A stretch of DNA of 64,000 nucleotides from Methylomonas sp. ZR1. Its GTDB lineage: Bacteria > Pseudomonadota > Gammaproteobacteria > Methylococcales > Methylomonadaceae. The position numbers were made by a program, and so were the translations under genes. The stretch spans positions 2,480,001 through 2,544,000 of the forward strand of contig NZ_RCST01000001.1 of NCBI RefSeq assembly GCF_013141865.1. The letters are read 5' to 3'. The notes beneath the pieces are model-generated. The model saw only the letters and a program-made list of their open reading frames with translations. It was not told the origin of the DNA and searched no databases. Shown here piece after piece: positions 22,907 to 41,622 of the stretch. How positions within the stretch are numbered: position 1 is the first letter of the stretch; every line of letters begins with the position of its first letter.

Positions 22907-22921
22907 CGTTACAATATAACA
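22907..22921. promoter_or_regulatory. Zur-like operator upstream of the zinc locus
   Basis: CGTTACAATATAACA matches the Zur consensus core TGTTATA-N-TATAACA at 12 of 14 defined positions, with a nearly perfect GTTA...TAAC palindrome. It lies 35 bases before the receptor start, where repressor binding would overlap the promoter. The zinc-related content of the downstream genes independently supports Zur control. Confidence 0.75.
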
Positions 22922-22955: not shown

Positions 22956-24986
22956 ATGAAAAAAACCGCTGCCCTAATTTTAATGCTGCCATCGCCGGTT
23001 TTGTTGGCCGAAGAACTTGCGATTCAAGCACTAGACGAAATCATCGTCACGGCACCGCTGCAAGATAAAAAATCGGACAGTCCGGTACCGGTCACCGTGT
23101 TGAGCGACGACGATTTACGTATGAAGACCGGCCACAGCATCGGCGATACCTTAAAAAACGAATTGGGCATCAGCAGCCAATCTTTCGGCCCCGGCGTCGG
23201 CACCCCGGTGATACGCGGCCAGGCCGGCCCGAGGGTGAGAGTCTTGAGCAACGGCATCGGCAGCAATGATGTCTCGGCGATCAGCCCAGACCACGCCACC
23301 AGCGTCGAACCGCTGCTGGCGGAGCGCATCGAAGTCCTGCGCGGCCCGGCCACCCTACTCTACGGCAGCGGCGCGATGGGCGGCGTGGTTAACGTCATCG
23401 ATAACCGCATCCCAGGCCGCCAGTTCGACAAGCTGGTAGGTGCGGCGCTCGAACAACGCTTCGATTCCACCTCAGACGAAACCAGCACCACGATGAAAGT
23501 CGAGGGCGGCAAGGACAACATCGCTTACCACCTGGACGGTTTTTACCGCCACCGCAACAATCTGGACATTGGCGGCAGCGGCATAGACACCGCTAAAGTG
23601 GCCATCACCGATCCCAGCTTGGCGATTGTCGACAACCCCAAAGGCTATCTGAACAACACCGGCGCCGAAGCGATCAGCGGCTCGGCAGGCTTGTCCTGGA
23701 TCGGTGCCCCCGGTTTTGCGGGCGTATCCATCAATAATCTAAATAACAACTACGCCATCGCTCCGGACGGCACCGGCGACGAAACCGTCAGCATCGCGAT
23801 GCGGCAAACCAAATACGATTTTAAGAGCGAATTAAACAACCCGTTCCGCTTCGCGAAAAGTCTACGCACCCGGCTGGGTTACACCGATTACCAACACACC
23901 GAAATTGCCAACGGCGAGCCCGGCGCCTATTACACCAACCAGTCTTACGAGGGCCGCATGGAAATGGCTCACCAAGACTTGGGACCGTTGCGCGGCGTGG
24001 TGGGTTTTCAAGCCCAAGCCAGCGATTTTAATGCGATCGAAAAACTCACCGGCGACAGCATCGTCCCGCGTTCGGACATCAGCAGTTACGGTGTATTTGC
24101 CGTGGAATCGTTCGATATTGGCGCGGTGACCTATCAACTAGGCACGCGCGTCGAACAAACCGATATTCGCCCGGACGGTTTCGCCAATCTCAGCTACACG
24201 CCCGTCAGCGCGTCGGCTTCGGCCGTTTGGAAACTGGATAATCGCAACAGCCTGAATCTGGCAGTCACGCGCTCCTCGCGCGCCCCGCAAGTCCAGGAAC
24301 TACTATCCGACGGCTACCACGACGCCACTCGCAGTTACGACAGAGGCGACCTGGGTTTAAGAGAAGAAACCTCCTACAACCTGGATCTGGGTTACCGCTT
24401 CAAAACCGACTGGTTACGCGCCGAATTCGACTTATTCCACAACTGGGCCAGCGATTATATTTTCCAGCAACGCAGCGGTGAATTCGTCGATCAAGACGGC
24501 AATCCCTGCGTGGCGGATTGCGTGCCTTTGGTTACCAGCGGGCAACACGACGCCATCTTCAAAGGCTACGAAGCCAAACTGATTATGCCCATGATGGAAA
24601 ACCAGGTCGGCTTATTAGAGATGACCTTATTCAGCGACTACACCCGCGGCGAATTTCTCAACGGCAGCGACGTACCGCGCATGCCGCCTTTGCGCTACGG
24701 CCTACAACTGGATTTCAACCGGGACAAATTATCCACCTATTTGCGCTTTACCCGAGCCGAATCCCAGCCCCATGCCGGCGATTTCGAAACCTCCACCGCG
24801 GGCTATTTCTTGCTGAATGTCGGCGCCAACTATCAGGTCCAGGCCTATAAAGACGCCAAACTGATGGTGTTCGCCAAAGGTAACAACTTGCTGGATCAAA
24901 ACATCCGCAACTCGACATCTTACTTGCGAAACTTTGCGCCGGAAGCCGGACGCGGCGCGGAAGTCGGCTTTAGAGTCAGTTATTAG
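22956..24986 (+). CDS. znuD: TonB-dependent outer-membrane receptor, ZnuD-like
   Basis: This 676-residue receptor has a signal peptide (MKKTAALILMLPSPVLLAEE), a TonB box (DEIIVTA), a plug domain and a 22-strand barrel ending in VGFRVSY. The plug carries GPGVGTPVIRGQAGPRVRVL and DVSAISPDHATSVEPLLA, which are characteristic of ZnuD zinc receptors. It lacks a long histidine-rich loop, so substrate choice rests on family resemblance and context. It is first in the zinc locus and directly behind two Zur-like boxes. A terminator follows it, so it may be expressed more strongly than the genes behind it. Confidence 0.85.
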   Translation: MKKTAALILMLPSPVLLAEELAIQALDEIIVTAPLQDKKSDSPVPVTVLSDDDLRMKTGHSIGDTLKNELGISSQSFGPGVGTPVIRGQAGPRVRVLSNGIGSNDVSAISPDHATSVEPLLAERIEVLRGPATLLYGSGAMGGVVNVIDNRIPGRQFDKLVGAALEQRFDSTSDETSTTMKVEGGKDNIAYHLDGFYRHRNNLDIGGSGIDTAKVAITDPSLAIVDNPKGYLNNTGAEAISGSAGLSWIGAPGFAGVSINNLNNNYAIAPDGTGDETVSIAMRQTKYDFKSELNNPFRFAKSLRTRLGYTDYQHTEIANGEPGAYYTNQSYEGRMEMAHQDLGPLRGVVGFQAQASDFNAIEKLTGDSIVPRSDISSYGVFAVESFDIGAVTYQLGTRVEQTDIRPDGFANLSYTPVSASASAVWKLDNRNSLNLAVTRSSRAPQVQELLSDGYHDATRSYDRGDLGLREETSYNLDLGYRFKTDWLRAEFDLFHNWASDYIFQQRSGEFVDQDGNPCVADCVPLVTSGQHDAIFKGYEAKLIMPMMENQVGLLEMTLFSDYTRGEFLNGSDVPRMPPLRYGLQLDFNRDKLSTYLRFTRAESQPHAGDFETSTAGYFLLNVGANYQVQAYKDAKLMVFAKGNNLLDQNIRNSTSYLRNFAPEAGRGAEVGFRVSY

Positions 24987-24998
24987 AACGCTGAAACC

Positions 24999-25029
24999 GG
25001 CGCTGTTTTTTTCGACAGCGCCTTTTTTT
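24999..25029 (+). terminator. Terminator between receptor and first COG0523 gene
   Basis: GGCGCTGT pairs with ACAGCGCC around an 8-base loop and is followed by seven T. It lies 13 bases after the receptor stop and only 37 bases before the next ATG. Downstream genes would depend on read-through or on a promoter squeezed into that gap. Confidence 0.85.
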
Positions 25030-25066
25030 GGCCAAGCAAACGCCACAATATATCATCCAAAACACC

Positions 25067-26284
25067 ATGACCCTCGCATCCGCACCAGCCAAACAACTCC
25101 CTGTCACCGTACTGTCCGGCTTCCTGGGTGCGGGTAAAACCACCTTGTTGAACCACATCCTCAACAACCGGGAGAATTTAAGAGTGGCCGTAATTGTCAA
25201 CGACATGAGCGAGGTGAATATCGATGCGGCAACGGTCAAAAACCAAGTACAACTGAATCGTGGCCAGGAAAAACTGGTCGAAATAAGCAACGGGTGCATT
25301 TGCTGCACGCTACGCGAGGACTTGCTGATCGAGGTCGGCAACTTGGCCAAGGATGGCCGCTTTGATTACTTGGTAATCGAATCCACCGGCATTGCCGAGC
25401 CTTTGCCGATTGCGGAAACCTTCACGTTTCGCGACGAACAGGGTTTGAGTTTATCGGACATTGCCCGCCTGGATACGTTGGTGACCGTGGTGGACGCGGT
25501 CAACTTTATGCGCAATTACCTGGAAGCCTTGAGTTTAAAAGAAACCGGCGAATCACTCGGCGAAGACGACGCACGTAACGTCGCCGATTTGCTGGTCGAT
25601 CAAATTGAATTTGCCAACGTCATTCTGATTTCCAAAATTGATCTGATCGCCAGCGACGAGCTTATCAACCTAAAAGCGGTGTTACACAGCCTCAACCCCG
25701 ATGCGGAAATCCTCCCTATCGTGATGGGTCAGGTCGATTTAAGCAAAGTACTCGACACCGGCTTGTTCGATTTCGAAAAAGCCGAGCAAGCCCCAGGCTG
25801 GTTAAAAGAATTGCGGGGCGAACATAAACCGGAGACCGAGGAATACGGCATAAGCAGCTTCGTTTACACCGCCCGGCGCCCCTTTCATCCGCAGCGTTTC
25901 TATGATCATCTGCACCACGGCGATTGGGATAACGGCACCTTGTTGCGTTCCAAAGGTTTTTTTTGGTTGGCATCGCGCCCGGATCACGCCGGCAGCTGGT
26001 CACAAGCGGGCGGCGTGATGCACCATGGTTTGGCGGGTCGCTGGTGGGCGACAGTACCGCGCCAGGAATGGCCGCAAGACTATATGCTGGACATCCAGTC
26101 ACAATGGGCCGAACCCCACGGCGACTGCCGCCAAGAGCTAGTATTTATCGGTCAAAACCTCAATGCCGACCAAGTGCGCCGCGAATTGGACGAGTGCCTG
26201 TTAACCGACGCCGAACTGGCAGCCGGCCCGGCAGTTTGGCGACACTATCAAGATGAATTTCCGCAGTGGTTTGCCGATGGCTAG
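25067..26284 (+). CDS. COG0523 GTPase, ZigA/YciC-type zinc metallochaperone
   Basis: This protein of about 405 residues belongs to the G3E GTPase family. It shows the P-loop [24 protein letters not shown], the metal-binding CxCC motif [18 protein letters not shown], and the guanine motif ISKID. The C-terminal CobW_C domain contains [18 protein letters not shown] and a histidine-containing HHGDWDNG. This long form is typical of zinc-starvation chaperones (ZigA, ZagA, YciC) that hand zinc to client enzymes. I chose the ATG at 25067 because the frame upstream runs into the terminator. Confidence 0.92.
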
Positions 26285-26522
26285 CATCGACAGCTATCTG
26301 CATATCATCGGCATTGAATTGTTGCTTATTCTAGCCATGCTCTTGCCCTTGATTGACAGGCCGTCCGCCAAACGTGTGCTGTCAAAACTGTTTTTGACTG
26401 TGTTGGGGTTCATGCTGGCGCATTTTGCTACCCATGCCTTGCCGAACAAATTAGCCGGATTTATTTACAGTTCTCAGCACGCATACCACTCGCTCAAAGC
26501 CAAAACACCCCATCGCACATGA
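26277..26522 (+). CDS. Small two-helix membrane protein in the zinc locus
   Basis: About 81 residues from the ATG overlapping the COG0523 stop. Two hydrophobic segments are seen ([19 protein letters not shown] at 10-24 and [18 protein letters not shown] at about 40-57). The tail has several histidines ([14 protein letters not shown]). It overlaps the next gene by four bases, so it is translationally coupled on both sides. I recognise no family. Position suggests a zinc-transport accessory protein, but that is inference. Confidence 0.7.
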
Positions 26523-27304
26523 CTATCGCTATCAACACTATGGCCGGCGCCATTGCGGCCTGTCTCGCCGTCAGCCTTTGCTCGTTGTCCAGCATATTTG
26601 CATTATGGTTGAAACCCGACGCCTTGCATCGGGTAGTACCGTATCTAGTCGCGCTGGCAGTCGGCGTACTCCTGGGCGATGCTTTTATTCATTTGATCCC
26701 CGATGCCATAGACCGCCACGGCAGTGTCAGCGATGTCTGCCTGACGGTATTGGTGGGTGTATTCGGTTTCTTTGTATTGGAAAAATTGGTGCGCTGGCGG
26801 CACGACCATAATGTCGACACCACACCAACCGGTGGCGAGGTCATGCCATTGGCTAAAATGAATCTGATCGGCGATGCCATGCACAACTTCGTCGACGGCA
26901 TCTTGATTGCCGGCAGTTTTCTCGCTGATACGGCGCTGGGATTGACCACCACCCTGGCCATTATCGCCCACGAAGTCCCGCAAGAACTGGGCGATGTCGG
27001 CGCATTGCTGCGCGGCGGCTACTCGCCCAAACAAGCCGTACTCTACAACTTTTATTGCTCGCTGACGGTTCTGCCGGGGGCGATCTTTACCTTGTTACTC
27101 AGCCAGTTAGCCGAATCTTCCTTGTCGCTACTGTTACCCATCGCTGCCGGCGGCTTTATTTATATCGCCGCCTCCGATCTGATTCCGGTATTACACGAAC
27201 CATGCAGTTTTCCCAGCCTGAGCGGACAAACCGCCGCGTTTGGTTTCGGCATCGTGTTTATGCAATTCATCGTATTTTTCGAACAGTTCCTGATCGCTGG
27301 TTAA
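26519..27304 (+). CDS. ZIP-family zinc permease
   Basis: This 261-residue inner-membrane protein has eight likely helices. It carries the two ZIP metal-site signatures: HNFVDG in helix 4 (His122, Asp126) and HEVPQE in helix 5 (His151, Glu152, Glu156). A short histidine-containing cytoplasmic loop (RWRHDHNVD) lies between helices 3 and 4. ZIP proteins import zinc or iron. Context with a Zur box, ZnuD-like receptor and COG0523 GTPases favours zinc. It stands here in place of the ZnuABC transporter usual in Zur regulons. Confidence 0.9.
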   Translation: MTIAINTMAGAIAACLAVSLCSLSSIFALWLKPDALHRVVPYLVALAVGVLLGDAFIHLIPDAIDRHGSVSDVCLTVLVGVFGFFVLEKLVRWRHDHNVDTTPTGGEVMPLAKMNLIGDAMHNFVDGILIAGSFLADTALGLTTTLAIIAHEVPQELGDVGALLRGGYSPKQAVLYNFYCSLTVLPGAIFTLLLSQLAESSLSLLLPIAAGGFIYIAASDLIPVLHEPCSFPSLSGQTAAFGFGIVFMQFIVFFEQFLIAG

Positions 27305-27313
27305 GGAGTTTTT

Positions 27314-28030
27314 GTGTTTGCCCGCATACCCTTTCGTCAATCATCCCTGTCGCCGTTAGCCGGCCCCACATCCTTCCAGCCCGTTTCGTATCGGCCATCG
27401 ACCCGCACCGTCGTCTCCACAAACTTTGTGGATTTGACGCGCATCTACGAGGACGACGTGAACTTTTGCTTAATAGAACGACCATTGCCGGCCACCATTG
27501 AAGGCTTTATCTATCAGGCCTTGAAGCTATTCGGCCCCTGGGAACTCAGTCAGCCCGTCAATCCATCTGATTTTAACTATACAAACCTGTGGCCCCAAGC
27601 CAGCCAACTCGATGGCTATGACACATGGCTGGCAGACATCGAACTATTGACGACGGCGTTCTGCGAGCTATTCGAACTCAAGCAAACCGGCTTGCGCCTA
27701 AGGACCTTGAAAACCGCCATGTGTCCACGCTTTCATGTGGATAGAGTGCCCGCGCGGATGATTTGTAGCTACGGCGGCATCGGCACCGAATGGCTACCGG
27801 AATATGCGCTGGATCGACGAAAACTGGGGATGGGTAGTGGCGGCCTGGATGATGCGCAGTCCGGTTTGATCGCCGACCAAACCGCCATTCGGCGGATGCC
27901 CGCCTATGCCGTGGGCCTGATGAAAGGCGAAGCCTGGGAAGGTAACGAAGGCCAGGGTTTTGTGCATCGATCACCTACGCCAACGGCGGTGCAGCCGCGG
28001 CGCTTGGTACTGACGCTGGATATGCTGTGA
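27314..28030 (+). CDS. DUF1826 protein, possible Fe(II)/2-oxoglutarate-type fold
   Basis: This 238-residue protein starts at a GTG nine bases after the ZIP stop, with AAGGAG upstream. It matches DUF1826, a family often found next to COG0523 and ZIP genes. The conserved core reads CPRFHVDRVPARMICSYGG then GTEWLPE. It thus has HxD (His141, Asp143), a distal His218 (FVHRSP) and Arg229/230 before LVLTLDM. That HxD...H...R order is the layout of non-heme iron dioxygenases. This is my inference; the family has no confirmed activity that I know of. Confidence 0.8.
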   Translation: MFARIPFRQSSLSPLAGPTSFQPVSYRPSTRTVVSTNFVDLTRIYEDDVNFCLIERPLPATIEGFIYQALKLFGPWELSQPVNPSDFNYTNLWPQASQLDGYDTWLADIELLTTAFCELFELKQTGLRLRTLKTAMCPRFHVDRVPARMICSYGGIGTEWLPEYALDRRKLGMGSGGLDDAQSGLIADQTAIRRMPAYAVGLMKGEAWEGNEGQGFVHRSPTPTAVQPRRLVLTLDML

Positions 28031-28040
28031 GGGTGCGGCA

Positions 28041-29726
28041 TTGCTGATCAAATTAGCAGGCGGACACCTCTACGATCCCGCACAAAACCGGCAAGGTGAA
28101 TCGCACGATCTATTTATCCGTGATGGCATAATCACAGCCGACCCGGGCCCCGACGCCAAGTTCGATCAGGTATACGACGTATCCGGCCAGATTGTCATGG
28201 CCGGCGCGGTGGATATTCACAGCCATATTGCCGGCGGCAACGTCAACACCGCACGCCTGTTGTTGCCTGAACAACACCGCAATCACATGGAACGGCGCTT
28301 GCATCATCCCTTCAGCACGGCGAAATGGTCGACCACCGACACCGGCTACCGCTACGCGCGCATGGGCTACACCACGGTGGTCGAACCGGCCATGTTACCG
28401 GTCAATGCCTTGGACGTGCATTTGCAGATGGCCGATATACCCATCCTGGATACCGCCGCGCTAGCCATTCTGGGTAACGACGACTTGTTGTTGCGACTGA
28501 TACGAGCCAAAGCCAGCCAAAACCAAATCAACGACTACGTGGCCTGGACTTTACACGCTACCCGCGCGCTGGGCTTGAAAGTCATCAACGCCGGTGGTGC
28601 CAACGCCTTTAAAAGCAATGCCCGCCAATTCGCTTTGGATGACATCGTCCCCGACTACGGCGTCAGCTCCCGGCAAATTCTGCAAACCTTGCAAACTGCC
28701 GTATGCCAACTAGGCGTGCCACACCCGGTACATGTGCATTGCAACAACTTGGGTATTCCAGGAAATATCGAAACCATCATAGACACCATGGCAGCCGCGC
28801 AAGGACTGCCTATGCATCTAGCCCACGTCCAGTTCTACGCCTATGGCAAGGACGGCAGTAAGGGCTTTTCCTCGGCAGCCGCGCAACTTCTGGAAGCGTT
28901 CAACCGCCATCCGAATATCACCATGGATGTCGGCCAGGTGCTGTTCGGCCAGACCGTGACCATTTCCGGCGATGTCATCGCTCAATACAGCCGCCACGCG
29001 GATGCCAGCCCCAATAAATGGGTAATGTGGGACGCCGAGTGTGAAGGTTCCGGCGGCGTGGTGCCTTACCGATACCGGGAAGCCAGTTTCGTCAACACCT
29101 TGCAATGGGCCATCGGCTTGGAGCTTTTTTTGCTTGCAGAAGCCCCGGAGCGTTTATTCTTTACCACCGACCATCCGAACGGCGCACCGTTTACCGCCTA
29201 CCCAGAATTGATCCGACTGTTGATGGACGCCGATTACCGCCAGGCCTATATGGCAGGCTTAAATCAAGAAGCGCTGGCGATGACCTTATTGCCCAACCTC
29301 AAGCGCGAATTTACCTTAAACGAAATTGCCAACATGACCCGCAGTGCTGCCGCAAAGCTATTGGGCTTGCATGATCGCGGTCATCTGGCACCTGGGGCAA
29401 TAGCCGACATTGCCGTCTACGACCCGGCGGGAATTGGCAGATGCGATCCGATCACCGGTGCATTTACTACCCATCCTCAAGCAAATATCGCTGCCATGTT
29501 CGCCAATGCCGCTCTAATGTTTAAACACGGTGAATTAGTGGTGCAAAACGGCGTGGTCGTGGCGCGGCCAAGCGGCCGAGCTCAAATGCTGCAACCCAAT
29601 TACGATGCCCGCATCACGCGGACGGTGCAAGATCATTTCAACCGGTTCTACAGTTTGAAACTTAACAATTTCGCCATCAACGATGCCGACTTCGCAGAAC
29701 GCCCCCGGTTTAGGGTGCACCGCTGA
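28041..29726 (+). CDS. fhcA: Formylmethanofuran dehydrogenase subunit A homologue (FhcA/FwdA)
   Basis: This 561-residue amidohydrolase is full length for FhcA/FwdA. In methylotrophs FhcA is the formyl-hydrolysing subunit of the formyltransferase/hydrolase complex, which releases formate from the H4MPT-linked formaldehyde oxidation pathway. The binuclear zinc site appears complete: His60 and His62 (DIHSH), Lys180 ([10 protein letters not shown]), His231/His233 (HPVHVHCN), His262 (HLAHVQFY) and Asp377 (TTDHPNG). It starts at a TTG with GAGGG seven bases before it, eleven bases after DUF1826. No fhcB, fhcC or fhcD is nearby. It may be the main subunit displaced, or a second, zinc-starvation isoform. 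Confidence 0.9.
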
Positions 29727-29769: not shown

Positions 29770-30558
29770 ATGCTCCCTATCGAAGACATTCAAGGCCGCC
29801 CTGACACACGGCGCATTGCCATCGACAAAGTCGGCATCAAAGACATTCTGCACCCGATCCGGGTCAAAGAGAAAAGTGGCGGCGAACAGCGCACCGTTGC
29901 GCACTTTGCGATGTACGTCAATTTGCCGCACGACTTCAAAGGCACCCATATGTCCCGTTTTGTGGAAATCTTGAACGATCACGACCGGGAAATCAGCATT
30001 GCCTCTTTTCCGGCGATGCTGCAGGACATGCTCGCCAAATTGGAGGCCGAATCCGGGTATATCGAGATGCGTTTTCCCTACTTCATCGATAAAGCAGCGC
30101 CGGTCAGTGACGTCCGCAGCTTAATGGACTATCAAGTCAGTTTTATTGGCGAAATCGATAACGCCGGCTGTCGCATCAAAGTGAAGGTGATAGTGCCGGT
30201 CACCAGTCTGTGCCCTTGCTCCAAGGAAATTTCCGAACGCGGTGCGCATAATCAACGCTCACACGTCAGCGTGACTGTAGAGGCCAAGTCGTTTATCTGG
30301 CTTGAAGAACTGATCACGCTGGTAGAAGCCGAAGCCTCCTCGCAAATTTACGGCCTTTTAAAGCGCCCGGACGAAAAATACGTCACCGAATACGCCTACG
30401 ACCACCCCAAATTTGTCGAGGACATGGTGCGCGATGTAGCCGCCCGCTTGAACGCAGAGCCACGGATCATCAGTTACAGCGTCGAATCGGAAAACTTCGA
30501 GTCTATTCATAATCACTCAGCTTATGCACTGATACAGCGTGTCAATTCCCCATCCTGA
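29770..30558 (+). CDS. folE2: GTP cyclohydrolase IB (zinc-independent)
   Basis: This 262-residue cytoplasmic enzyme converts GTP to dihydroneopterin triphosphate, the precursor of folate and, in methylotrophs, of methanopterin. The FolE2 landmarks are present: the catalytic cysteine region [10 protein letters not shown], then [10 protein letters not shown] and the metal-ligand glutamate in [11 protein letters not shown]. Unlike FolE it can use several metals, and it is a well-known Zur-regulated substitute under zinc limitation. The ATG at 29770 is preferred over an upstream frame extension that would overlap fhcA. Its presence is the strongest functional argument that this operon answers zinc starvation. 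Confidence 0.96.
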
Positions 30559-30568
30559 CGGAGGCCCT

Positions 30569-31564
30569 ATGAACGCCAACCTCAAAACTAACAGCGCCGT
30601 GCCCGTGACCATTCTCACCGGCTTTCTCGGGGCCGGCAAAACCACTTTGTTGAACCGGATTCTCAGCGAAGACCACGGCAAACGGATTGCGGTGATCGAA
30701 AACGAATTCGGCGAAGCCGGTATCGACAACGAACTTTTAGTGCAAGCCGACGAACAAATTGTCACCATGAATAACGGATGTATCTGTTGCACCGTGCGCG
30801 GCGACTTGGTGCGTATTCTCGGCGAACTCAGCGACGGCCGCGAATCCGGAGAACTCCAATTTGAGCGGGTCATCATTGAAACCACCGGTTTGGCGGATCC
30901 GGCTCCGGTTGCCCAAACCTTTTTCATCGACGAAAACATTGCCGAAAACTACCAGCTGGACGCCATCATCACCGTCGTCGATGCCGTGCACGCCCACCTC
31001 CAGCTAGCCGAACACCACGAAGCGCAAGAGCAAGTCGGCTTTGCTGATCGCATCCTGCTATCTAAAACCGACCTCCAAGAACCGGACATTGTTTTAGATT
31101 TGGAAACCCGCCTCCGAGCTATGAACCCCAGAGCGCCAATCAAACACGTGCATTTCGGCCAAACTGAACTCGGCGATATTCTGGATATCGACGGCTTTAA
31201 CCTGGATGACATTTTGAAAATCGAACCGGATTTTCTGGAAGACATCAGCCACAAGCACGAGGACGACATCCGTGCCTTGGTCTACCAAACCGACCGGCCT
31301 CTGGATGCCGCGCGGATTCTGGCATTCCTGAACATCATGATCCGCGACTACGGCAACGACTTGCTCCGCTACAAGGGCATTCTTAACATCGCCGGCTGCG
31401 AACAAAAAGTGATTTATCAAGGTGTGCATATGCTGATGACCGAGACTTTCGGCAACCCTTGGCAAGCCGATGAAGCACGGGAATCGAGTATGGTGTTTAT
31501 CGGTCGCAACTTACCCAAGGAGGATATGCTGGAGGCCTTGGCTTCTTGCCGGGTAGGCGTTTAG
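30569..31564 (+). CDS. COG0523 GTPase (YjiA-like)
   Basis: This protein of about 331 residues shows the P-loop [25 protein letters not shown], the CxCC motif NNGCICCTVRGDL, ETTGLADPAPV and the guanine motif LSKTD. The CobW_C domain contains ALVYQTDRPLDAARI and the local cluster HKHEDD. It is shorter than the first COG0523 protein in this locus and of another subtype, closer to YjiA. The start at 30569 has GACGGAGG six bases upstream and lies ten bases after folE2. It is likely a zinc metallochaperone working with the neighbouring genes. Confidence 0.92.
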   Translation: MNANLKTNSAVPVTILTGFLGAGKTTLLNRILSEDHGKRIAVIENEFGEAGIDNELLVQADEQIVTMNNGCICCTVRGDLVRILGELSDGRESGELQFERVIIETTGLADPAPVAQTFFIDENIAENYQLDAIITVVDAVHAHLQLAEHHEAQEQVGFADRILLSKTDLQEPDIVLDLETRLRAMNPRAPIKHVHFGQTELGDILDIDGFNLDDILKIEPDFLEDISHKHEDDIRALVYQTDRPLDAARILAFLNIMIRDYGNDLLRYKGILNIAGCEQKVIYQGVHMLMTETFGNPWQADEARESSMVFIGRNLPKEDMLEALASCRVGV

Positions 31565-31753: not shown

Positions 31754-32728
31754 ATGCCCGATCCAGACAAAATCCCTATTTTTGTGCTCACCGGCTTCCT
31801 CGGCAGCGGCAAAACCACCTTGTTGAATCGATTTTTGGCTGACGGGGTAAAGACCGCTGTGGTGATAAACGAGTTCGGCGAAATACCGGTCGATCAGGAT
31901 TTGTTGGCAAACCAAAATCTGCCGCTGACCGTGCTGTCCGGCGGGTGTCTATGCTGCAAGGTCAAAGGCGCGTTGGCGCCCACGTTAAAAAACCTGTGGA
32001 TGACCTGGGAGCAAGCGGCAAGCAAGCCTTTCGCACGCATGATTATCGAAGCCAGCGGCATCGCCAGCCCGGAACCGATTCTGGATACTCTGTTGCGCGA
32101 GCGCTGGCTGCCTGGCCGTTATCATTTGCAAAACGTCATCACTACCTTGGCTATACCCTCGGCTGCAGCACAGCTGGACAGTTTTGCCGAAGCGCGGGCG
32201 CAGGTGGCTTGGGCCGATACCTTATTGCTGACCCATGCCGACGTAAGCAATGCCGACCAGCAAGCCGCGTTGGCAACCCGCTTGCAAGTTCTAGCGCCGG
32301 CCACGCCCAGACTGACGGCAGAAGACTTTCATGCACTTAGCCTGCTGACTAAAGCAGGCCCAAGCTTGCGCCGCTTGCCTCCTGCCGGCCCGTTACCGGT
32401 ACATAACTTTCGCAGTATCTCGCTGCATCTGGAACAAATTCTGCCCTGGCAGCACCTGCAAACCCTCCTCCAACAGCTGCTTAACCGCCACCCACAAGAC
32501 TTATTGCGCATCAAAGGCGTGGTTTATCTTGCCGAACAAACCGAACCGATGGTGATTCAGGCAGCCGGCACTCGACTGTACCCACCTACCCCATTAACCG
32601 CCAGAACAAGCGACGACGGCCGCAGCCGGCTGGTATTCATCGTTAACGGCGAGCCAACGGCTTTTGCTACCGATCTAAACAAGGCTTTTGTTCCGCTGCT
32701 TAGCGGGAACGCTATCAAGCTGCATTGA
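31754..32728 (+). CDS. COG0523 GTPase, third paralogue
   Basis: This protein of about 324 residues shows GFLGSGKTTLLNRF, VVINEFGEIPVDQDLL, the metal motif SGGCLCCKVKG, EASGIASPEPI, and a weaker guanine region (LLTHAD instead of SKxD). The C-terminal CobW_C part is divergent. It resembles CobW/YjiA-like proteins of unknown client. The ATG at 31754 is the first good methionine before IPIFVLTGFLGSGK; an upstream TTG at 31703 is possible. The 190-base gap after the preceding gene may hold a separate promoter, so membership in the zinc operon is less certain. Confidence 0.85.
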   Translation: MPDPDKIPIFVLTGFLGSGKTTLLNRFLADGVKTAVVINEFGEIPVDQDLLANQNLPLTVLSGGCLCCKVKGALAPTLKNLWMTWEQAASKPFARMIIEASGIASPEPILDTLLRERWLPGRYHLQNVITTLAIPSAAAQLDSFAEARAQVAWADTLLLTHADVSNADQQAALATRLQVLAPATPRLTAEDFHALSLLTKAGPSLRRLPPAGPLPVHNFRSISLHLEQILPWQHLQTLLQQLLNRHPQDLLRIKGVVYLAEQTEPMVIQAAGTRLYPPTPLTARTSDDGRSRLVFIVNGEPTAFATDLNKAFVPLLSGNAIKLH

Positions 32729-32860: not shown

Positions 32861-33331
32861 ATGCAAGGCGACAAACAAGTCATAGCTCACTTAAACGAAT
32901 TGCTGGCAGGCGAACTGACCGCAATAGACCAGTATTTTATTCATTCCAGGATGTATGAAAACTGGGGCTTTACCAAATTATACGAACGCATCAATCACGA
33001 GGTTCAAGACGAAACCAACCATGCGGATGCCTTGATCAAGCGAATTTTGTTTCTGGAAGGCACACCGGATTTATCCAAACGCGAACCGCTGGCAGTCGGC
33101 ACCAACGTGCCGGAGATGCTGAAAAACGATCTGGCGGTGGAATACAAAGTGGTTGCGGATTTGCGCAAAGTCATCGCCTATTGCGAAACCGTGCGCGATT
33201 ACCAAACACGGGAAATTCTGGAAGTGATGCTGGACGACACCGAGGAAGATCATGCGCACTGGCTGGAAAAACAATTGAGCTTGATTGATATGATTGGTTT
33301 GCCAAATTATCTGCAATCGCAAATATCCTGA
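32861..33331 (+). CDS. bfr: Bacterioferritin, heme-ligand-less subunit
   Basis: This 156-residue ferritin-fold protein aligns end to end with bacterioferritin ([32 protein letters not shown]). The ferroxidase ligands Glu18, Glu51, His54, the Glu of AVEYK, and Glu/His of EEDHAHWLE are present. The heme-ligating methionine expected at position 52 is threonine (DETNH), so this subunit probably cannot bind heme alone. It stores iron oxidised by O2 or peroxide. A strong ribosome-binding site (GGGAGG) precedes it and a terminator follows. A second, Met52-type subunit may be encoded elsewhere. Confidence 0.93.
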
Positions 33332-33444: not shown

Positions 33445-36400
33445 TTACAAATCCGCAGCTTGTAAAAGCAATAAAGCGGCTTGATAGTCGAACGCTTCGA
33501 TTTGCCTGGCAAAATCCGGATATGCAGCCCCCAATTTTGACCGCAGCAACACGGCGTATTCCCGCGCCAAACGGCTGGCTTGCGCATCGCCAATTGCCAA
33601 AAGACTTGCCAGTGCAGCTACGACTTGGCGCATATTTTCCGCATCGATAATTTCCTCATCCGCGTCGCTGCTTGCCGGTTGGGAAGGTAAATCCAGGATA
33701 GCGCGAACCAAATGCGTCAATTCGCTATCGCACAACGCCGCCAACTCCATGCAGACCGCCAAATCGCTGCTCTCGGCTATCGCCCGGTCCAATTTAGCCG
33801 CCAAATCGGCAACCTGTTTGGCACCCAGCGTGCCGGCAACGCCTTTTAAGCAGTGACTGATGCGTTTTGCTTCGGCGGATTTGCCATCAACCAAGTAGGC
33901 CTGAACTTGTTTCAAGTCTTCATTGTGGGCATCGGCAAACATGCTCAACAATCGTTGATATTTATCCACGTCGCCCTTCACTACAGCCAGGCCTTGCTTG
34001 GTGTCCAGGCCGCTGATGGCCAGCAAAGCCGGCGGCAGCGTATCGTCCGTTGCCCCTGTTTTTGCCGAAAAGCGCCCTGCCTCCGCTTTATCGGGCCTCA
34101 GGGGACGCGGATCAGAACGCGGTGCCAACCAGCGCAACAAGGCCGCGTAAAGATCTTCCGGAATCACCGGTTTAGCGACAAAATCGTTCATACCCGCAGC
34201 GAGCGAAACATGCCGGTCTTCCTCAAACGCGGCGGCAGTCATGGCCAAAATCGGCAAGCCGGCAAAACTCGGCTGCGCACGTATCGCCCGCGTCGCCTCC
34301 AGACCGTCCATTTCCGGCATCTGTACATCCATCAACACCAGATCGTAGGCGTTCTCGCCGATTTTTTCGAGGGCGATTCGCCCGTTCTCGGCGGTATCCA
34401 CTGCCAAACCCACGCCATGCAACAACTCCAGCGCCACTTCCCGATTGATCGGATTATCTTCCACTAAAAGCAAACGCGCGCCGGCGTAATCTCGGCGTAA
34501 CGCCATTTCCGCGTCGACGGGCTTTTCACTGGGGTGTAAAGGCATGACGCCGTGCCCGCGTTGAACCAGGGCGGTAAACCAAAAGCAACTGCCTTCGCCC
34601 AATACGCTATCGACGCCGGCATCGCCGCCCATCATATTCGCCAGACGGCGGGTAATCGCCAAGCCCAAGCCTGTCCCGCCATATTTGCGGGTGGTCGACA
34701 CATCGGCCTGGGTGAAAGCCTGAAATAAACCGGCTTGTTGCTCCGCTTCTATACCGATTCCGGAATCGTTCACCTCGAAGCGCAGCAGCAAGCCCGCGGC
34801 GGTTTCCTCCTGCACCATCGCCCGCAACCGGATCGAACCGCGTTCGGTAAACTTCACGGCATTGGTGGCGTAGTTGAGCATCGCTTGGCGCAGACGCATC
34901 GGATCCCCGCGCAGCCATTGCGGAACGCCCTGCCCATCCACCTCTATGCTCAAGGCCTTGGCCCGCGCCTGATCGGCGATAATGGAACGAATGTGGTCCA
35001 ATACCGCCGCCAGGGAAAAATCGGTTTGCTCCAGCTCCAGCCGGCCGGCTTCGATCTTCGATAAATCCAGCACGTCGTTAATAATCGACAATAGATGTTG
35101 GGCGGCGCCATCGATTTTGTCCAAACGCTCGCTTTGTTCCGGATTGGGACTGCTTTGCCGCAGCAAATAAGTCAAGCCGATGATGGCATTCATGGGGGTA
35201 CGAATCTCGTGACTCATATTGGCCAAAAAGGCGCTCTTGGCTTGATTGGCGGCATCGGCCAACAGTTTCGCCGCTTCCAGTTCGGCCGTGCGGCTGGCCA
35301 CTAAATCTTCCAGGTGGTGCCGATACTGATCCAGCTCCAGCGCCACACGTTTCTTCTCGGTGATGTCTTCCTGTACCGCAACAAAATGGGTTACGATGCC
35401 GTCGGCCTGACGGATTGGCACGATAATGGCAAATTCCACATACTCGCTACCGTCCTTGCGTTTATTGATAAATTCGCCTTTCCAGGTCTGACCACAGCCC
35501 AGTGCGGTCCACAGCGCCCGATAATTTTCCGGCGGGGTTTTTTTCGATTGCAATATGCGCGGATTACGGCCGATGACCTCGTCGCGCCGGTAGCCGCTCA
35601 CCTGCAAAAACGCCTCGTTAACGTATTCGATATCGCCGTTCAGGTTGGTGATGATAATACTGGCCGGACTTTGTTCCACCGCCTGCGCCAACTTACGCAG
35701 TTGCTGTTCGGTTTGTTTGCGCTCACTAATATCCAGATTGACCCCAAACAGCATGATCGGTTTACCCGCGGCATCGTATTGCGCACGGCCCTTGCTGCTC
35801 AGCCATCGCGTTTCGCCGGTTGGCAAAATATAGCGAAACTCCACCTCGAACGCCTCGCCACGCAAAATGCGGCTTTCCCACTGTGCATCAATCAAATGCT
35901 GATCGTCCGGATGCACTCTTGCGCGCCAGTCGGCGTTGAACCGCACACTGCCGGGTTCCAAGCCATACAGCCGCTCGCATTCCGGCGACCAATAACCGCG
36001 ATCATTGACAATATCCCAATCCCAAATCCCGACATGCGCCCCCTCCTGCGCCAGCATTAAACGCCGTTCGCTCGCGCGCAAGGCTTCCGCGGCAGCTTCC
36101 GCGCGCTGGCGGGCCGCGATGGCATCTTCCATCAAATTTAAGGCCGCCAGTTGCGCCTGATGCTGCTCTAACAGCGCTTGCTCCTGGCTTTGCCGCAAGG
36201 CCTGCTCCGCTTCACGCCTTAACCGGCGTTGATCGCGTTCCTCGACCGCTCTGAGCAGGGAAGGCACCAAGCGGACCGGATTGTCCTTGTACACGAAATC
36301 GACCATCCCCAGCCGTAACAACTCCATCGCGACTTCTTCGCCGACACTGGCGGAGACCAGAATAACCGGCAAATCTTTACTGTGCGTTTGAATGAATTGC

Positions 36401-36603
36401 AAGGTATCGCGAATATCCATTCCCGGTACCGCGTAATCCGACAGCACCAAATCCCAGTCGTCTTGCAAAGCCAGCGCCAGCGCCGCGCGGCTATCTATCC
36501 GCCGGCATGCCACGCTTAGGCCGTTCTGCTGCAAGTGGTGCACCAGGGCCAGATAATCAGCCTGTAATTCTTCGATAATCAGTAATTTCAATTCAGGATT
36601 CAT
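33445..36603 (-). CDS. Hybrid sensor histidine kinase (REC-PAS-PAS-HK-REC-HPt)
   Basis: About 1,052 residues from the ATG at 36603; an open extension to 36699 would overlap the previous gene. An N-terminal receiver ([10 protein letters not shown], about 5-125) comes first. Two PAS/PAC domains follow (about 185-310 and 315-430), each ending in ISERKQ or ITEKKR. Next are HisKA with [18 protein letters not shown], a HATPase with [16 protein letters not shown] residues and GTGLGLAI, and a second receiver ([26 protein letters not shown]). The C-terminal HPt domain has [12 protein letters not shown]. It is the only kinase in its operon, so it is the likely output of the two PAS sensors upstream. 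Confidence 0.95.
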
Positions 36604-36655
36604 AGACCCATCACGATCATCATGGCGGCTAAGTAATACGCAAACCGGGCGCGTT

Positions 36656-39304
36656 TCATCCCGGCACATTCCCAACCGGGTTTGTGCCGGCTTGCTCAAT
36701 AAACGCCAGCGGATAGGGGCGTTCCTGTCCCAGTTGCCCGGACAGCTCGTTGATGGTTTGTTTCAATGCGATCATATCCATTTCCCTGCCGACCATGGCT
36801 CTGTTGAAACGCTGCAGGGCCTCAGTTTGCTCGCGTAGCGCAACCTCGGCGGCTTTGCGCTCGCTAATATCTAAGGCATAGGCCACACGCCTGATGGATT
36901 TGCCGTCGCCGGATTTGATAATAGTCACGTCTATCATCACCGGAAAACGACTGCCGTCCTTGCGTTGATGTTCCGCCTCAAATACCCCATGACAGGTCGA
37001 ATCCAGAATATTAATCTGCTGTTTGATCTGTTCGACCCAATCGGCCGGATACACCGTCATGACCGGTTTGCCGATCAATTCTTCTCGGGCGTAACCACGC
37101 TCCCTAGCAAATACCGGATTCACAGCCAAGAACACATTGCTCTGCGCGTCGGCAATCGCCAGTCCGAATTCGGCATTTTCGAATGCTTGCGCCCAGAGCT
37201 TGAGTTCGTTTTCAGTATTTTTACGTTCGGTAATATCGATACAAACCCCAAATACCCTTTGCGCCCGGCCCATATCATCGTAACTGGCTCCGCCCTTGCA
37301 ATTTAGCCATCTGAAACGCCCCGGCTCCGCTTGCACCCGAAAATCAAAATCAAAAGTCCGATGCGCGGCAACCGCTGAATCTCGAAAATGCTCCAACTCG
37401 GCCAAATCGTCGGGATGCACGCGCTGGGAAAAAGCCGAGTAGTCCCCGGAAAAAGCGCCTGGCGCATAACCGAACATCGTCTCAAGTTCCGGAGTCCATT
37501 GCACTTTGTCGTTATCAATATGCCAATCCCAGATGCCGATATTGGCAGTACTTTGGGCCAGACGTAAGCGCTCCTCGCTTTCGACCAAGGCCATTTCCGC
37601 CAATTTGCGCTCGGTGATATTGGTGTGAGAAACCACCGCGCCGCCTTCCCCAAATCCCAAAGGCGTGACAACCATGGCAAACCAACGCTGCTTCTGTGCG
37701 GAATGGCAGGCATATTCATACCTGAAGCGGGGAAGCCGGCCTTCCAGCACCGCCGACAATCCGTTGAATACGGCCTGCGACCCTTGCCGATACGGACCCG
37801 ATGCCTGCTGGCAAATCTGCAAATAATTGGTGCCTATGCTGCAAATATCAGCGGATTGCCCGCATGCCAGAGCATCATCCTCGGCAAACTGCTGCCAGGG
37901 TCGATTGACGGAGACAATCACACCATCGCGGTTCAGCACGGCGATGTTGGCGCTCACCGAATCCAAAATAGCCCGCTTAAATTCTTCGCTTTCGCGCAGC
38001 GACGCATTCGCCGCTTCAAGCGCTTTGCGGGCCGCCAGCGCATCTTCCATCAAATTGAGTGCGGCTAGCCTGGCCTCGCGTTGCTTTTCCAGGGCCACCC
38101 GCTGCGCCTCTTGCAGCGCAAGTTCGGCTTGTTTACGTGGGGTAACATCCTGCACGGTACCATGCAAAGCCACGATATTAGCCTGCTCATCACGGACCGC
38201 TTCGCCGCGGGCCACTACCCAGCGATGCAGTTCGCCATCGTTCTGCAATTCCACCTCGCATTCATAAGGCAAGCCGTCGCTACAAGCCTGAGCTACGGCA
38301 GCTTGCAAGCGCTGCCAGCTATCGGGCTTAAAATACCGCCCAACCTCGTCATAGCCGGCTGGCGGTAAATGAGGGGCGCGGCCGAATAAACTGTATATCT
38401 GCTCCGACCACTTCGATTCGCCGGTGCGCAAGTCCCATTCCCAACTGCCCAAGGCGGCTAAACGCTGAGCGACTTTCAAAGCCATCTCGCTTTCATGTAG
38501 CGCCAGTAACGCTTGTTCACGCTGTTCTATGTTTTCCATGAGCAAGATAAAACACGCAGGGCTACCATCCGGCTTACGCGCCACGGAAGCGCTTAATCTA
38601 ATCCAGACAACACTGCCGTTCTTATGAATGAAACGCTTGTCTCCGGAAAAACTATCTATTTCACCTTCACCTGTCGGCATCTGCAACAAATCGCCAAAAT
38701 CCTCCCAATAGGTAATGTCCGAAAAATTGCTGCTTAGCAATTCTTCCAGGCTATAACCCACTATCTCGCAAAATTGGCGGTTAGCCTTCAGCCAGCGCCC
38801 GTCCGGTGCCAATAAACAAATGCCTATCGCCGCTTGTTCGAACGTAGTCTGAAATAGGGTTTGGCTAACCTGCAGTTGGTCGCGCGCGTCCAGCAATTGT
38901 TGCCAGTGAGCATTTTCGCGTTGCCGAGTCCGCAGCAGGAATTCGCTGAGCAGGCTGATTAAAACACCATTGCCAATCAATAACGTCCATTGCACTACAT
39001 CGTAAGGGCCGGCAATTGCCAAGCTGCGATAGGGAGGCAACAGTTGGAAATCGCTGACCATCGCCGCCATCAATGTCGCCAATAATCCAGGCCCCAAGCC
39101 GCCGAACAAGGCACTCACGACCACCGGAAACAAAAACAACAGCAACATCGGGCGCTCGCCAAAGGATGCCGGCAAACTCAGGCGGATTGCCAGCGCGGCC
39201 AATACCAGGACCACCGCCGACACGTAGGCGAGTCTATGGCTGCTCCGGTAACGGGAAGGCACCAACGCGGAAAAATCGCCCAATGGCAACTCGGGGATAC
39301 TCAT
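36656..39304 (-). CDS. Membrane multi-PAS sensor without kinase domain
   Basis: This 882-residue protein has four N-terminal transmembrane helices of the DUF4118/KdpD type ([19 protein letters not shown] to about residue 120). About five PAS/PAC repeats follow, closing with [33 protein letters not shown] and ISERKAAE. It ends with the linker [20 protein letters not shown] and a short tail, and has no HisKA, GGDEF or EAL domain. The same linker ends the neighbouring sensor. It overlaps that gene by four bases. It probably signals through protein contact with the hybrid kinase encoded next. Confidence 0.88.
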
Positions 39305-41622
39305 AAACGGTCTTCTTCCGCAACCGATGTATCGCCGCCCATTAACCCGTCCGCATTGCTTACTGATATTCCGTCCGGTTTGAGAGGGTCCAAGCCGGAT
39401 TCGGTGTGAACTTCAGCAAAATCATGACCAACAGCACTTTCGGGTTGGGTTGAGAGAAACGCCAATGTATAGGGGGGCTGGCGACCAAGCTGCGCATACA
39501 GATCATTGACCTGCTGCTTTAAATTAACCATGTCCAGCTCGCGGCCAACCATGGCCCGATTAAATCGCTCCAATTCATCATTCCGCGCTTTTAATTCCGC
39601 GGCCTGGAGATTAAGTTGATCTTCGGCGGCTTTGCGGGCGCTGACATCCAGAATAAAACCAATCACCGCAGGCCGGTTTTTATAATCGAAGCTGCGGCCA
39701 TGGACTTCAACATGAATGCAGTGGCCGTTTTGGTGCAAGCCTTCGAAACGGTAGTTAAGGTCTTCAATCTCGCCATCAATCCGTCGGCGCAAATTTTCCA
39801 ACACCATCTGCCTGTCCTGCGGACAGACCAGATCGGCCACTGTTTTGCCGTCGATAATATCCTCGGTCCACTGATAGCCGAAGATCCTGGCAAACCCTGG
39901 ATTCACGTAAACAAAGCGTGCATCTTGAATAATATAAATGCCGGCCAGTGACTGTTCCACCAAACCGCGAAAGCGCGCCTCGCTCTCGCGCAGCTTCAGC
40001 TCGGCCTGTTTACGTTCGGTAATGTCCCGCGAGATACCGAACACCCCGATGGTTTTACCGTTTGCATCGCACAGCGGGCCTTTGGTAGTCAAGAAAGTTC
40101 TTGATCCGAATTGGGTGTCCAGGGTTTCTTCTTCCGTCAGCGTGATATTTTCCGCCATTACCCGGCGGCTAAACTCTTTCAAGTGCTCGGCCTGATGCGG
40201 CGGAAATAGCGCGCTATCGTCCTGGCCGATAACTTCCTCGACCGGCTTGCCGACAAAATTAGCGGCGGCGGTATTAAACAAAATATACCGGCCGTCTAGG
40301 TCTTTGGCATAGATCGCGTCCACGGACAAATCGGAGATTGCCGCTAATAAATCAAGCGCCCGCAAACGCTCCGCTTGCGCCTTCTGCACCGCCGTGGCCA
40401 AGGCCAGGCTCTGACTTTGCCGCAACAGATAAAAACCGGCGCAGACGATAAAAATGGTCAAACTACCGACACAAACAATCCAGACGACTTCGCTTCTGGC
40501 TTTGCTGTAGATTTCGACCTTATCCAACTTAGTCAGTAACAGCCAGTCGGTACCGCTAATCGCCTGTACCAGACCGATGACGGAGACATTACGGTAATCC
40601 TTGGCTTCCAGGATGTTGTCGAGACTAACCGGACTTTGCAGCGCCTTGCCGGCCAGCAAGTTAGGCGTGTTGAGCGGCAAACGCAGCGAAGCAGCCGCAT
40701 CAGGGCGAAAACGCAGCGGATTCAGATAGAGAATCTTATCGCCGGCACGCCGAAACAACAAGGTTTCGCCGCTGCCGCTCGCCACAGGCCAACTCTCCAG
40801 AACCGGAAACAGCCACTCGCTGAGATCGATATGTAAAACAATCAGCGGCGCCGCTACCGGCTGCGCTGTCAGCGGCACCACCAAATCCAGCAGGACGCGC
40901 CCGCTATCATCTCTGTAGGGATTAACTAATTGGATTTGCCGCGATTTGGTCGACAACTCTGTAAGTTTTAGCAGCTCAGGCAACAGCGTGGCGGGAGCTT
41001 TCGCGGAACGCCATAAGCGTTCGCCATCGGGTCTAAGCAGACTGATAGCCGTGACGCCCCAGCTTTTGCGAAATTGTTCCAAACGGCTTTGCAGGCGTTC
41101 GGCACTTTGCAGATCCCCATCAATCTGCCAACGATGATACAAGTCGATGATAAATTCGCTGGTTTGGATAAAATCCGCGTCGCCGCGCCGTTCAGTCAGC
41201 CAGTCGCTGATTTGCCTGGACTTGAGGCCGGCGACCGCCTGAAGCCGGCCGAACTCTTCTTGGGTGTGTTGCTCGATCGTCAGCGCCGCGCTGGCAGCCA
41301 TCAAAGCCAGGATGGCGACTATCAATAAGCCCAGCGACAACCAATGGCTACGCGGTGCCTGGGGAACGGTTTGCGGTTCGCTGTTTCGACCAAACCAGCG
41401 CCGCATCAAACCGTAGAGCAATAAAGAAGTCACCAATACATAAACCCAGCCTTTCAGCATGCTGGCTAGCGTCAGCTGGTCCGGGTCTTTGAATACGTGG
41501 TGTACCAATTGATCCGATACCAAAATCCAGCTGGCGGCGAAGATGGCGTATACCAGTACGACGGCTAAGACGCTTTTGCGGCTGACCTGCGCTGAGTTTG
41601 ATGGATCGTTATTCGACTGCAT
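39301..41622 (-). CDS. Membrane sensor with extracytoplasmic domain and PAS repeats, no kinase
   Basis: This 773-residue protein has TM helices at about 17-35, 57-75 and 95-115. A periplasmic sensing domain of dCACHE-like size (about 120-375) follows, containing LRPDGERLWRS and LVVPLTAQPV. Then come another helix (WIVCVGSLTIFIVCAGFYLL), two PAS/PAC domains ending ITERKQAE and VSARKAAE, and the linker [20 protein letters not shown]. No output domain follows. It is probably the external-signal input of this operon. The end overlaps the next gene by four bases. Confidence 0.88.
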   Translation of the reverse strand: MQSNNDPSNSAQVSRKSVLAVVLVYAIFAASWILVSDQLVHHVFKDPDQLTLASMLKGWVYVLVTSLLLYGLMRRWFGRNSEPQTVPQAPRSHWLSLGLLIVAILALMAASAALTIEQHTQEEFGRLQAVAGLKSRQISDWLTERRGDADFIQTSEFIIDLYHRWQIDGDLQSAERLQSRLEQFRKSWGVTAISLLRPDGERLWRSAKAPATLLPELLKLTELSTKSRQIQLVNPYRDDSGRVLLDLVVPLTAQPVAAPLIVLHIDLSEWLFPVLESWPVASGSGETLLFRRAGDKILYLNPLRFRPDAAASLRLPLNTPNLLAGKALQSPVSLDNILEAKDYRNVSVIGLVQAISGTDWLLLTKLDKVEIYSKARSEVVWIVCVGSLTIFIVCAGFYLLRQSQSLALATAVQKAQAERLRALDLLAAISDLSVDAIYAKDLDGRYILFNTAAANFVGKPVEEVIGQDDSALFPPHQAEHLKEFSRRVMAENITLTEEETLDTQFGSRTFLTTKGPLCDANGKTIGVFGISRDITERKQAELKLRESEARFRGLVEQSLAGIYIIQDARFVYVNPGFARIFGYQWTEDIIDGKTVADLVCPQDRQMVLENLRRRIDGEIEDLNYRFEGLHQNGHCIHVEVHGRSFDYKNRPAVIGFILDVSARKAAEDQLNLQAAELKARNDELERFNRAMVGRELDMVNLKQQVNDLYAQLGRQPPYTLAFLSTQPESAVGHDFAEVHTESGLDPLKPDGISVSNADGLMGGDTSVAEEDRL

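Follow-up and report, generated by a model that had tools for sequence, protein, structure and literature searches.

Why should a gene for FhcA, one subunit of a four-subunit enzyme of one-carbon (C1) metabolism, stand by itself among zinc genes in a methanotroph? The question is raised by fhcA2, a stand-alone FhcA paralogue in the 64,000-nucleotide stretch of Methylomonas sp. ZR1 that we analysed (the window). We consider it likely that FhcA2 is a Zur-controlled zinc-starvation paralogue, which stands in for the other FhcA of the genome (FhcA1) on FhcB, FhcC and FhcD. The features of the locus are as follows:

22908..22920, + strand: Zur-type palindrome GTTACAATATAAC before znuD (candidate site; the sole perfect GTKAYAATATMAC match in the 5.18 Mb genome, and at the same place in sister loci)
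22956..24986, + strand: ZnuD-like TonB-dependent receptor (best match NF038289, 396.7 bits, below the cut-off of 950)
24999..25022, + strand: terminator-like hairpin between znuD and zigA (window scan; GGCGC...GCGCC plus a T-run, also in the seven aligned sister regions)
25042..25054, + strand: degenerate Zur-type site GCCACAATATATC before zigA (candidate site; alignment of eight Methylomonas regions)
25067..26284, + strand: zigA, COG0523 zinc metallochaperone GTPase (ORF listed from 25028; NF038288, 674.5 bits, cut-off 600)
26253..26522, + strand: 89-aa ORF without family match, between zigA and the ZIP gene (tblastn shows it conserved in some of the sister loci)
26519..27304, + strand: ZIP-family zinc transporter (PF02535, 141.8 bits)
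27314..28030, + strand: DUF1826 gene (PF08856, 210.7 bits)
28041..29726, + strand: fhcA2, stand-alone FhcA paralogue (ORF of 561 aa, TTG start)
28218..28226, + strand: HSH motif, His60-x-His62 of FhcA2 (both His kept in 132 of 132 FhcA rows)
28425..28427, + strand: Gln129 codon of FhcA2, clade-specific (alignment; Glu in the aligned fhc-cluster copies)
29770..30558, + strand: folE2, GTP cyclohydrolase (ORF listed from 29683; NF010200, 299.1 bits, cut-off 215)
30569..31564, + strand: COG0523 GTPase, YjiA-like, CICC motif (ORF listed from 30539; PF02492 and PF07683; NF008578, 328.9 bits, below the cut-off of 361)
31754..32728, + strand: second COG0523 GTPase, CLCC motif (ORF listed from 31703; PF02492, 121.1 bits)

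A sequence-only reading of this DNA had placed fhcA2 tightly between DUF1826 and FolE2 in a zinc-starvation operon. The placing is confirmed: the DUF1826 gene ends (28030) 10 bases upstream of the fhcA2 start, and the likely ATG of folE2 (29770, which we prefer to the listed ORF start at 29683 because FolE2 homology begins at residue 34) lies 43 bases downstream of the fhcA2 end. The operon stands in part: the zinc genes do keep company on one strand, but the transcript is probably split by the terminator-like hairpin between znuD and zigA. A search of the genome for ZnuA-family proteins gave none at E 0.001, and its main zinc uptake may therefore run through the ZnuD-like receptor and the ZIP transporter of the cluster. 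After the zinc cluster comes a bacterioferritin gene (32861-33331), and directly past both, at 33445-41622, are three long minus-strand multi-PAS sensor genes, one of them a hybrid histidine kinase.

FhcA2 falls best in TIGR03121 (formylmethanofuran dehydrogenase subunit A), scoring 664.8 bits over residues 3-552 of 561 where the cut-off is 392.75; its Pfam match in the profile search is Amidohydro_3. PyrC (dihydroorotase), like FhcA2, is a binuclear enzyme of the amidohydrolase superfamily. Residues H60, H62, K180, H233, H262 and D377, which we take to be metal ligands by analogy with FwdA, are identical in all 132 aligned FhcA rows; no ligand position is changed in FhcA2, and a search across these rows for loss of zinc ligands found none, so the earlier description of a full-length FhcA with its apparent zinc ligands holds. 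Since every metal ligand is kept, zinc independence of FhcA2 is not visible in its sequence. The structure model used was built from a 69-row alignment (pLDDT 87.7), an 18-row model (pLDDT 61.0) being set aside as too poor. Its closest fold among known structures is FhcA of the Methylorubrum extorquens FhcABCD complex (PDB 6s6y; TM 0.90, 46-47% identity, aligned ligand positions kept), followed by FwdA, with other amidohydrolases only at about 0.5.

FhcA2 differs from the 6s6y FhcA in genomic setting (no adjoining fhcB, fhcC or fhcD; a zinc cluster), in belonging to a separate clade, and in having Gln instead of Glu at residue 129. This position is Gln in all 53 Methylococcales-type FhcA2 rows (four of them from a group outside zinc clusters) and Glu in all 76 fhc-cluster rows, as well as in two more distant copies (loci L147 and L148); R318 is another clade-specific residue. 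Residues such as Q129 and R318 would suit a protein that no longer pairs with FhcBCD and hydrolyses some other formamide or amide during zinc shortage, as would the unrelated contexts of some clade members and the lack of adjoining fhcB, fhcC and fhcD in 40 of 40 loci, within the flanking DNA examined (see below). We nevertheless regard such a change of substrate as unlikely, because FhcA2 remains 37-61% (mostly 47-55%) identical to fhc-cluster FhcA, its model superposes on FhcA at the TM-score given above, the ligand positions are kept, and fhcB and fhcD are available in the same genome.

Does the genome then need a second FhcA? The sequence-only reading had asked whether another fhcA lies beside fhcB, fhcC or fhcD, and had named fhcA2 being the only fhcA, with constitutive expression from its own promoter, as grounds for giving up a zinc backup. 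The genome (5.18 Mb, two contigs) does contain a second one, FhcA1 (4961107-4962732, minus strand), 52% identical to FhcA2 and 2.45 Mb away from it, so that fhcA2 as the only fhcA is rejected. The FhcA1 gene has fhcB (353.1 bits) on one side and fhcD (458.8 bits) on the other; past fhcD comes an ORF with a GXGXG domain, as expected for fhcC, which, judging also by its position, it presumably is. FhcA1, presumably a zinc-dependent enzyme, is the clustered version and FhcA2 the stray one. That no fhc gene is near fhcA2 was also correct: the sole FhcD match of the genome and the sole FhcB over the cut-off are both at 4.96 Mb, adjoining FhcA1. Among Methylomonas, FhcD matches were found in 37 of 37 genomes, with a single match in 36 (partial in genome G578) and a full match plus an extra 26-residue fragment in the remaining one. 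A hidden second fhcBCD set for FhcA2 was rejected on these counts and on the lack of a second FhcB over the cut-off in the ZR1 genome. With a single FhcD match and a single FhcB over the cut-off in the genome, FhcA2 would have to share the FhcB and FhcD of FhcA1 in any complex. The genome also holds folE1 (259.3 bits, cut-off 181.6), so FolE2 is likewise a spare. ZR1 is close to Methylomonas sp. LW13 (locus L019; FhcA 99% identical). As a separate observation, in three genomes of the same class (loci L150, L151 and L152) a pair of fhcBADC-type clusters lies within a short distance, and one cluster of the pair has an FhcA just 43-46% identical to FhcA1; the fhcC of one L151 cluster had no match.

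We built a careful FhcA tree (74 rows, midpoint-rooted). The zinc-locus copies form their own clade, as the sequence-only reading had proposed to check, though a few copies outside zinc loci are also in it: the FhcA2 clade (support 100/96) holds 22 rows from zinc loci, 3 from loci of other kinds and 2 outliers, and no fhc-cluster genes. Its sister group (97/95) is a clade of 14 copies from fhc clusters, in which all named members belong to the Alphaproteobacteria; the FhcA1 of Methylococcales is placed far from the FhcA2 clade, mostly with fhcA of the same class, and L147 and L148 are on long branches. A recent duplication of FhcA1 is rejected, since FhcA2 groups with another fhcA lineage in two trees; from this placement, FhcA2 is an old separate lineage, either acquired or long kept. 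For the same reason its fit to an FhcA1-type FhcBCD is not assured. FhcA2 is under purifying selection, with a dN/dS of 0.05-0.11 across six pairs, four of which have dS above 1; for FhcA1, three pairs out of five give 0.03-0.08 and the remaining two are saturated.

FhcA matches are present in 192 of the 201 genomes of the family, and an FhcA2-type copy (at least 68% identity) in at least 45 genomes from at least 14 of 29 genera, by a count in which context was not confirmed genome by genome; the other FhcA rows among the matches listed have 51-55% identity. At least two FhcA matches (some possibly fragments) occur in 42 of these at least 45 genomes, and the three with a single match are 76-89% complete. 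At least three FhcA matches were counted in each of the genomes G154 and G138; in another (G186), the only copy among the matches listed appears to be that of locus L060, outside a zinc cluster. A contig search gave 46 FhcA loci, 6 from Alphaproteobacteria (by name) and 40 of Methylococcales type. fhcB, fhcD and fhcC adjoin FhcA in the former six, and were found beside the FhcA2-type gene in none of the 40, within flanking DNA that is short for some loci. The usual fhcBADC context, which is not a strict criterion for FhcA, was thus not seen for the FhcA2-type genes in this flanking DNA; in a phylum-wide draw of 398 genomes, all 17 others with FhcA at E 1e-100 have fhcB, fhcC or fhcD adjoining. 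Instead, 35 of the 40 loci have at least two zinc-cluster genes beside the FhcA2-type gene, L030 has one, and L035, L036, L060 and the fragment L064 have none.

FhcA2 shares the strand of the nearest panel gene in all zinc loci with one upstream (47/47) or downstream (45/45), and this gene encodes a COG0523 protein in 20/47 and 21/45, respectively. The latter counts fit, without proving it, the idea that FhcA2 is a COG0523 client. In this narrower and partly overlapping form of the favoured reading, FhcA2 would still be a zinc enzyme, a COG0523 client or extra dosage, steering scarce zinc to C1 oxidation; the retention of every ligand agrees with it as well, while for a dosage copy the simpler expectation is a recent duplication of FhcA1, not an old separate lineage. 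We rate this privileged zinc supply somewhat below an even chance.

Could the FhcA gene be in the zinc cluster merely by chance, with no zinc-related role? The five FhcA2-type loci outside zinc clusters would be in keeping with such hitch-hiking, but the association recurs in several named genera and reaches beyond the family, to L146 within the order and, with HisI, to L147 of a different order, and FhcA2 is held by purifying selection; we find the idea very improbable. For example, the L146 cluster contains Zur, ZnuD, DUF1826, FhcA2, DksA, HisI, COG0523, QueD and FolE2, and its DksA has two of the usual four cysteines of the C4 pattern replaced (C..T and C..A). L022 has ThrRS (676 bits), QueD (102.7) and HisI (161.6), all above their cut-offs; the best matches in L032 are Zur-like, gamma-carbonic-anhydrase-like and a zinc-type ABC ATPase, all below cut-off, with ZrgA present. 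Relatives of the Zur candidate of the ZR1 genome (query Zur2), itself under the cut-off of its model (140.5 of 167), occur in eight loci. FhcA2-clade copies outside zinc clusters, and without a Zur-type site, were seen in L035, L036, L060, L080 and L082 (some Methylobacter and relatives). DUF6671 is found near the copies in L035 and L036 (by Pfam) and L060 (by tblastn), and ORFs that look bioA- or cysD-like by eye are also near non-zinc copies. A stand-alone, long-branched FhcA in L149 (7260-8882) lies beside a same-strand run of ORFs resembling membrane proteins by eye, without zinc genes. A search of plasmids for FhcA gave 38 records at E 1e-100, all less than 60% identical.

Binding-site-like palindromes and gene context together point to Zur control of fhcA2. 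The palindrome GTTACAATATAAC is 35 bases upstream of the znuD start. In all eight chosen Methylomonas regions the znuD-zigA gap contains a terminator-like hairpin and then a Zur-type site just before zigA, and the fhcA2 transcription unit probably starts at this second candidate site (25042..25054 in the window). The site before zigA matches GTTATAATATAAC perfectly in SM2 and SURF-1; M. koyamae has GTTATAGTATAAC, three other regions have GCTACAATATAAC and LW13 has GCTACAATATATC; that of the window, GCCACAATATATC, has three mismatches to GTTAYAATATAAC and is the most degenerate of the eight. It weakens the case for Zur, since it has three mismatches and the hairpin cuts off the better znuD site, and it is the main weak point for Zur control in the ZR1 genome. 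Across the zinc loci tested, a site with at most one mismatch to GTTATAATATAAC, between -250 and +30 of ZnuD, ZigA or Zur, is present in 22 of 27 and missing in five; among random windows drawn from these loci, some of which may contain the real sites, 21 of 1080 reached this. None of 47 upstream windows in zinc loci has a Zur-type site of its own directly before fhcA2 (best, three mismatches).

By number alone, Zur-type patterns show no excess over controls, be it in the window or in the genome: one count gave 7 against 8.26 expected, GTKAYAATATMAC with one mismatch allowed occurs 14 times in the genome and 19 times in the reversed control, so it is no commoner, and a further pattern count gave 4 against 10 in the control, both strands counted. 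Defining a Zur regulon of the genome by pattern alone was therefore rejected as not separable from reversed controls, and because the counts are not above controls, the argument from these sites rests on position and conservation. In L147, HisI and FhcA2 lie behind a perfect 18-base palindrome; two other close palindromes in that genome (G319) adjoin ORFs without family match. In L148, a solitary FhcA2 is preceded, at a distance of about 80 bases, by the only match of the genome at two mismatches or fewer. This is a near-perfect 18-base palindrome, and FhcA2 is followed, 9 bases on, by a 989-residue FAD/Fe-S oxidoreductase (L148, 7472-12197, from a 1.7 Mb genome of another order).

How does FhcA2 compare with known zinc-starvation paralogues? 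The zinc-enzyme paralogues under Zur control beside COG0523 genes described in the main text of Haas et al. (2009; PMC2770081) are HisI, PyrC, gamma-CA (Cam), HemB, CysRS, ThrRS, AmiA, QueD and DksA, and also FolE2. FhcA is not among these nine paralogue families, and neither FhcA nor formylmethanofuran is mentioned in that main text, so FhcA2 is new with respect to that list. It resembles the listed families in being a zinc-enzyme paralogue with COG0523, FolE2, DUF1826 and candidate Zur-type sites nearby; as in zinc-starvation paralogues, the other version is elsewhere in the genome and the gene clusters with zinc-acquisition and COG0523 genes (35/40 loci). The company of FhcA2 loci (HisI, ThrRS, QueD, DksA) is that described in the same text. 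The difference is that FhcA is one subunit of a four-subunit C1 enzyme. According to Haas et al. (2009), the PyrC paralogue of Zur regulons is without zinc-binding residues, and the HisI, CysRS, ThrRS, QueD and AmiA paralogues keep their zinc ligands; FhcA2 would thus be a Zur-linked spare like PyrC, but with its ligands kept.

The favoured reading, the zinc-starvation stand-in, would work as follows. At low zinc, Zur would leave the palindromes at znuD and zigA, and the zigA-ZIP-DUF1826-fhcA2-folE2-COG0523 unit would then be expressed; FhcA2 would replace the zinc-dependent FhcA1 on the single FhcB/C/D set, and the hydrolysis of formyl-methylofuran to formate would go on with FhcA2 as its catalyst. 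The folE2 of the same unit would back up the step that opens pterin synthesis (folates). FolE2-type pterin synthesis probably also feeds H4MPT, and fhcA2 and folE2 may cover two steps of the same C1 route together. Since all ligands are kept, we think that FhcA2 differs not by loss of the site but in how it gets or holds its metal, which may be by COG0523 delivery, by tighter binding, or with Fe, Mn or Co in the same site. The full version, that FhcA2 works without zinc or is loaded by the COG0523 GTPases, swaps into FhcABCD under Zur control and has FolE2 covering the pterins of the same pathway, we put forward tentatively, as rather less than an even bet. The sequence-only reading had linked C1 oxidation to zinc supply either through a backup hydrolase or through a COG0523 client; the link gains from the existence of a second fhcA and from the zinc-locus clade, and the two forms are not separable by sequence because unchanged ligands and COG0523 neighbours fit both.

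These results suggest that many methanotrophs keep their one-carbon metabolism running on a spare FhcA when zinc runs out. If so, the oxidation of methane and methanol would be linked to the supply of zinc, and the zinc-starvation paralogues would gain a catalytic subunit that belongs to a multi-subunit C1 enzyme. FhcA1 and FhcA2, with the same ligands and an old divergence, would then be a natural pair for asking whether COG0523 GTPases load a defined client. A main formaldehyde-oxidation enzyme would exchange its whole catalytic subunit as zinc becomes scarce or plentiful, and methanotrophs would control their formaldehyde metabolism in part through zinc status.
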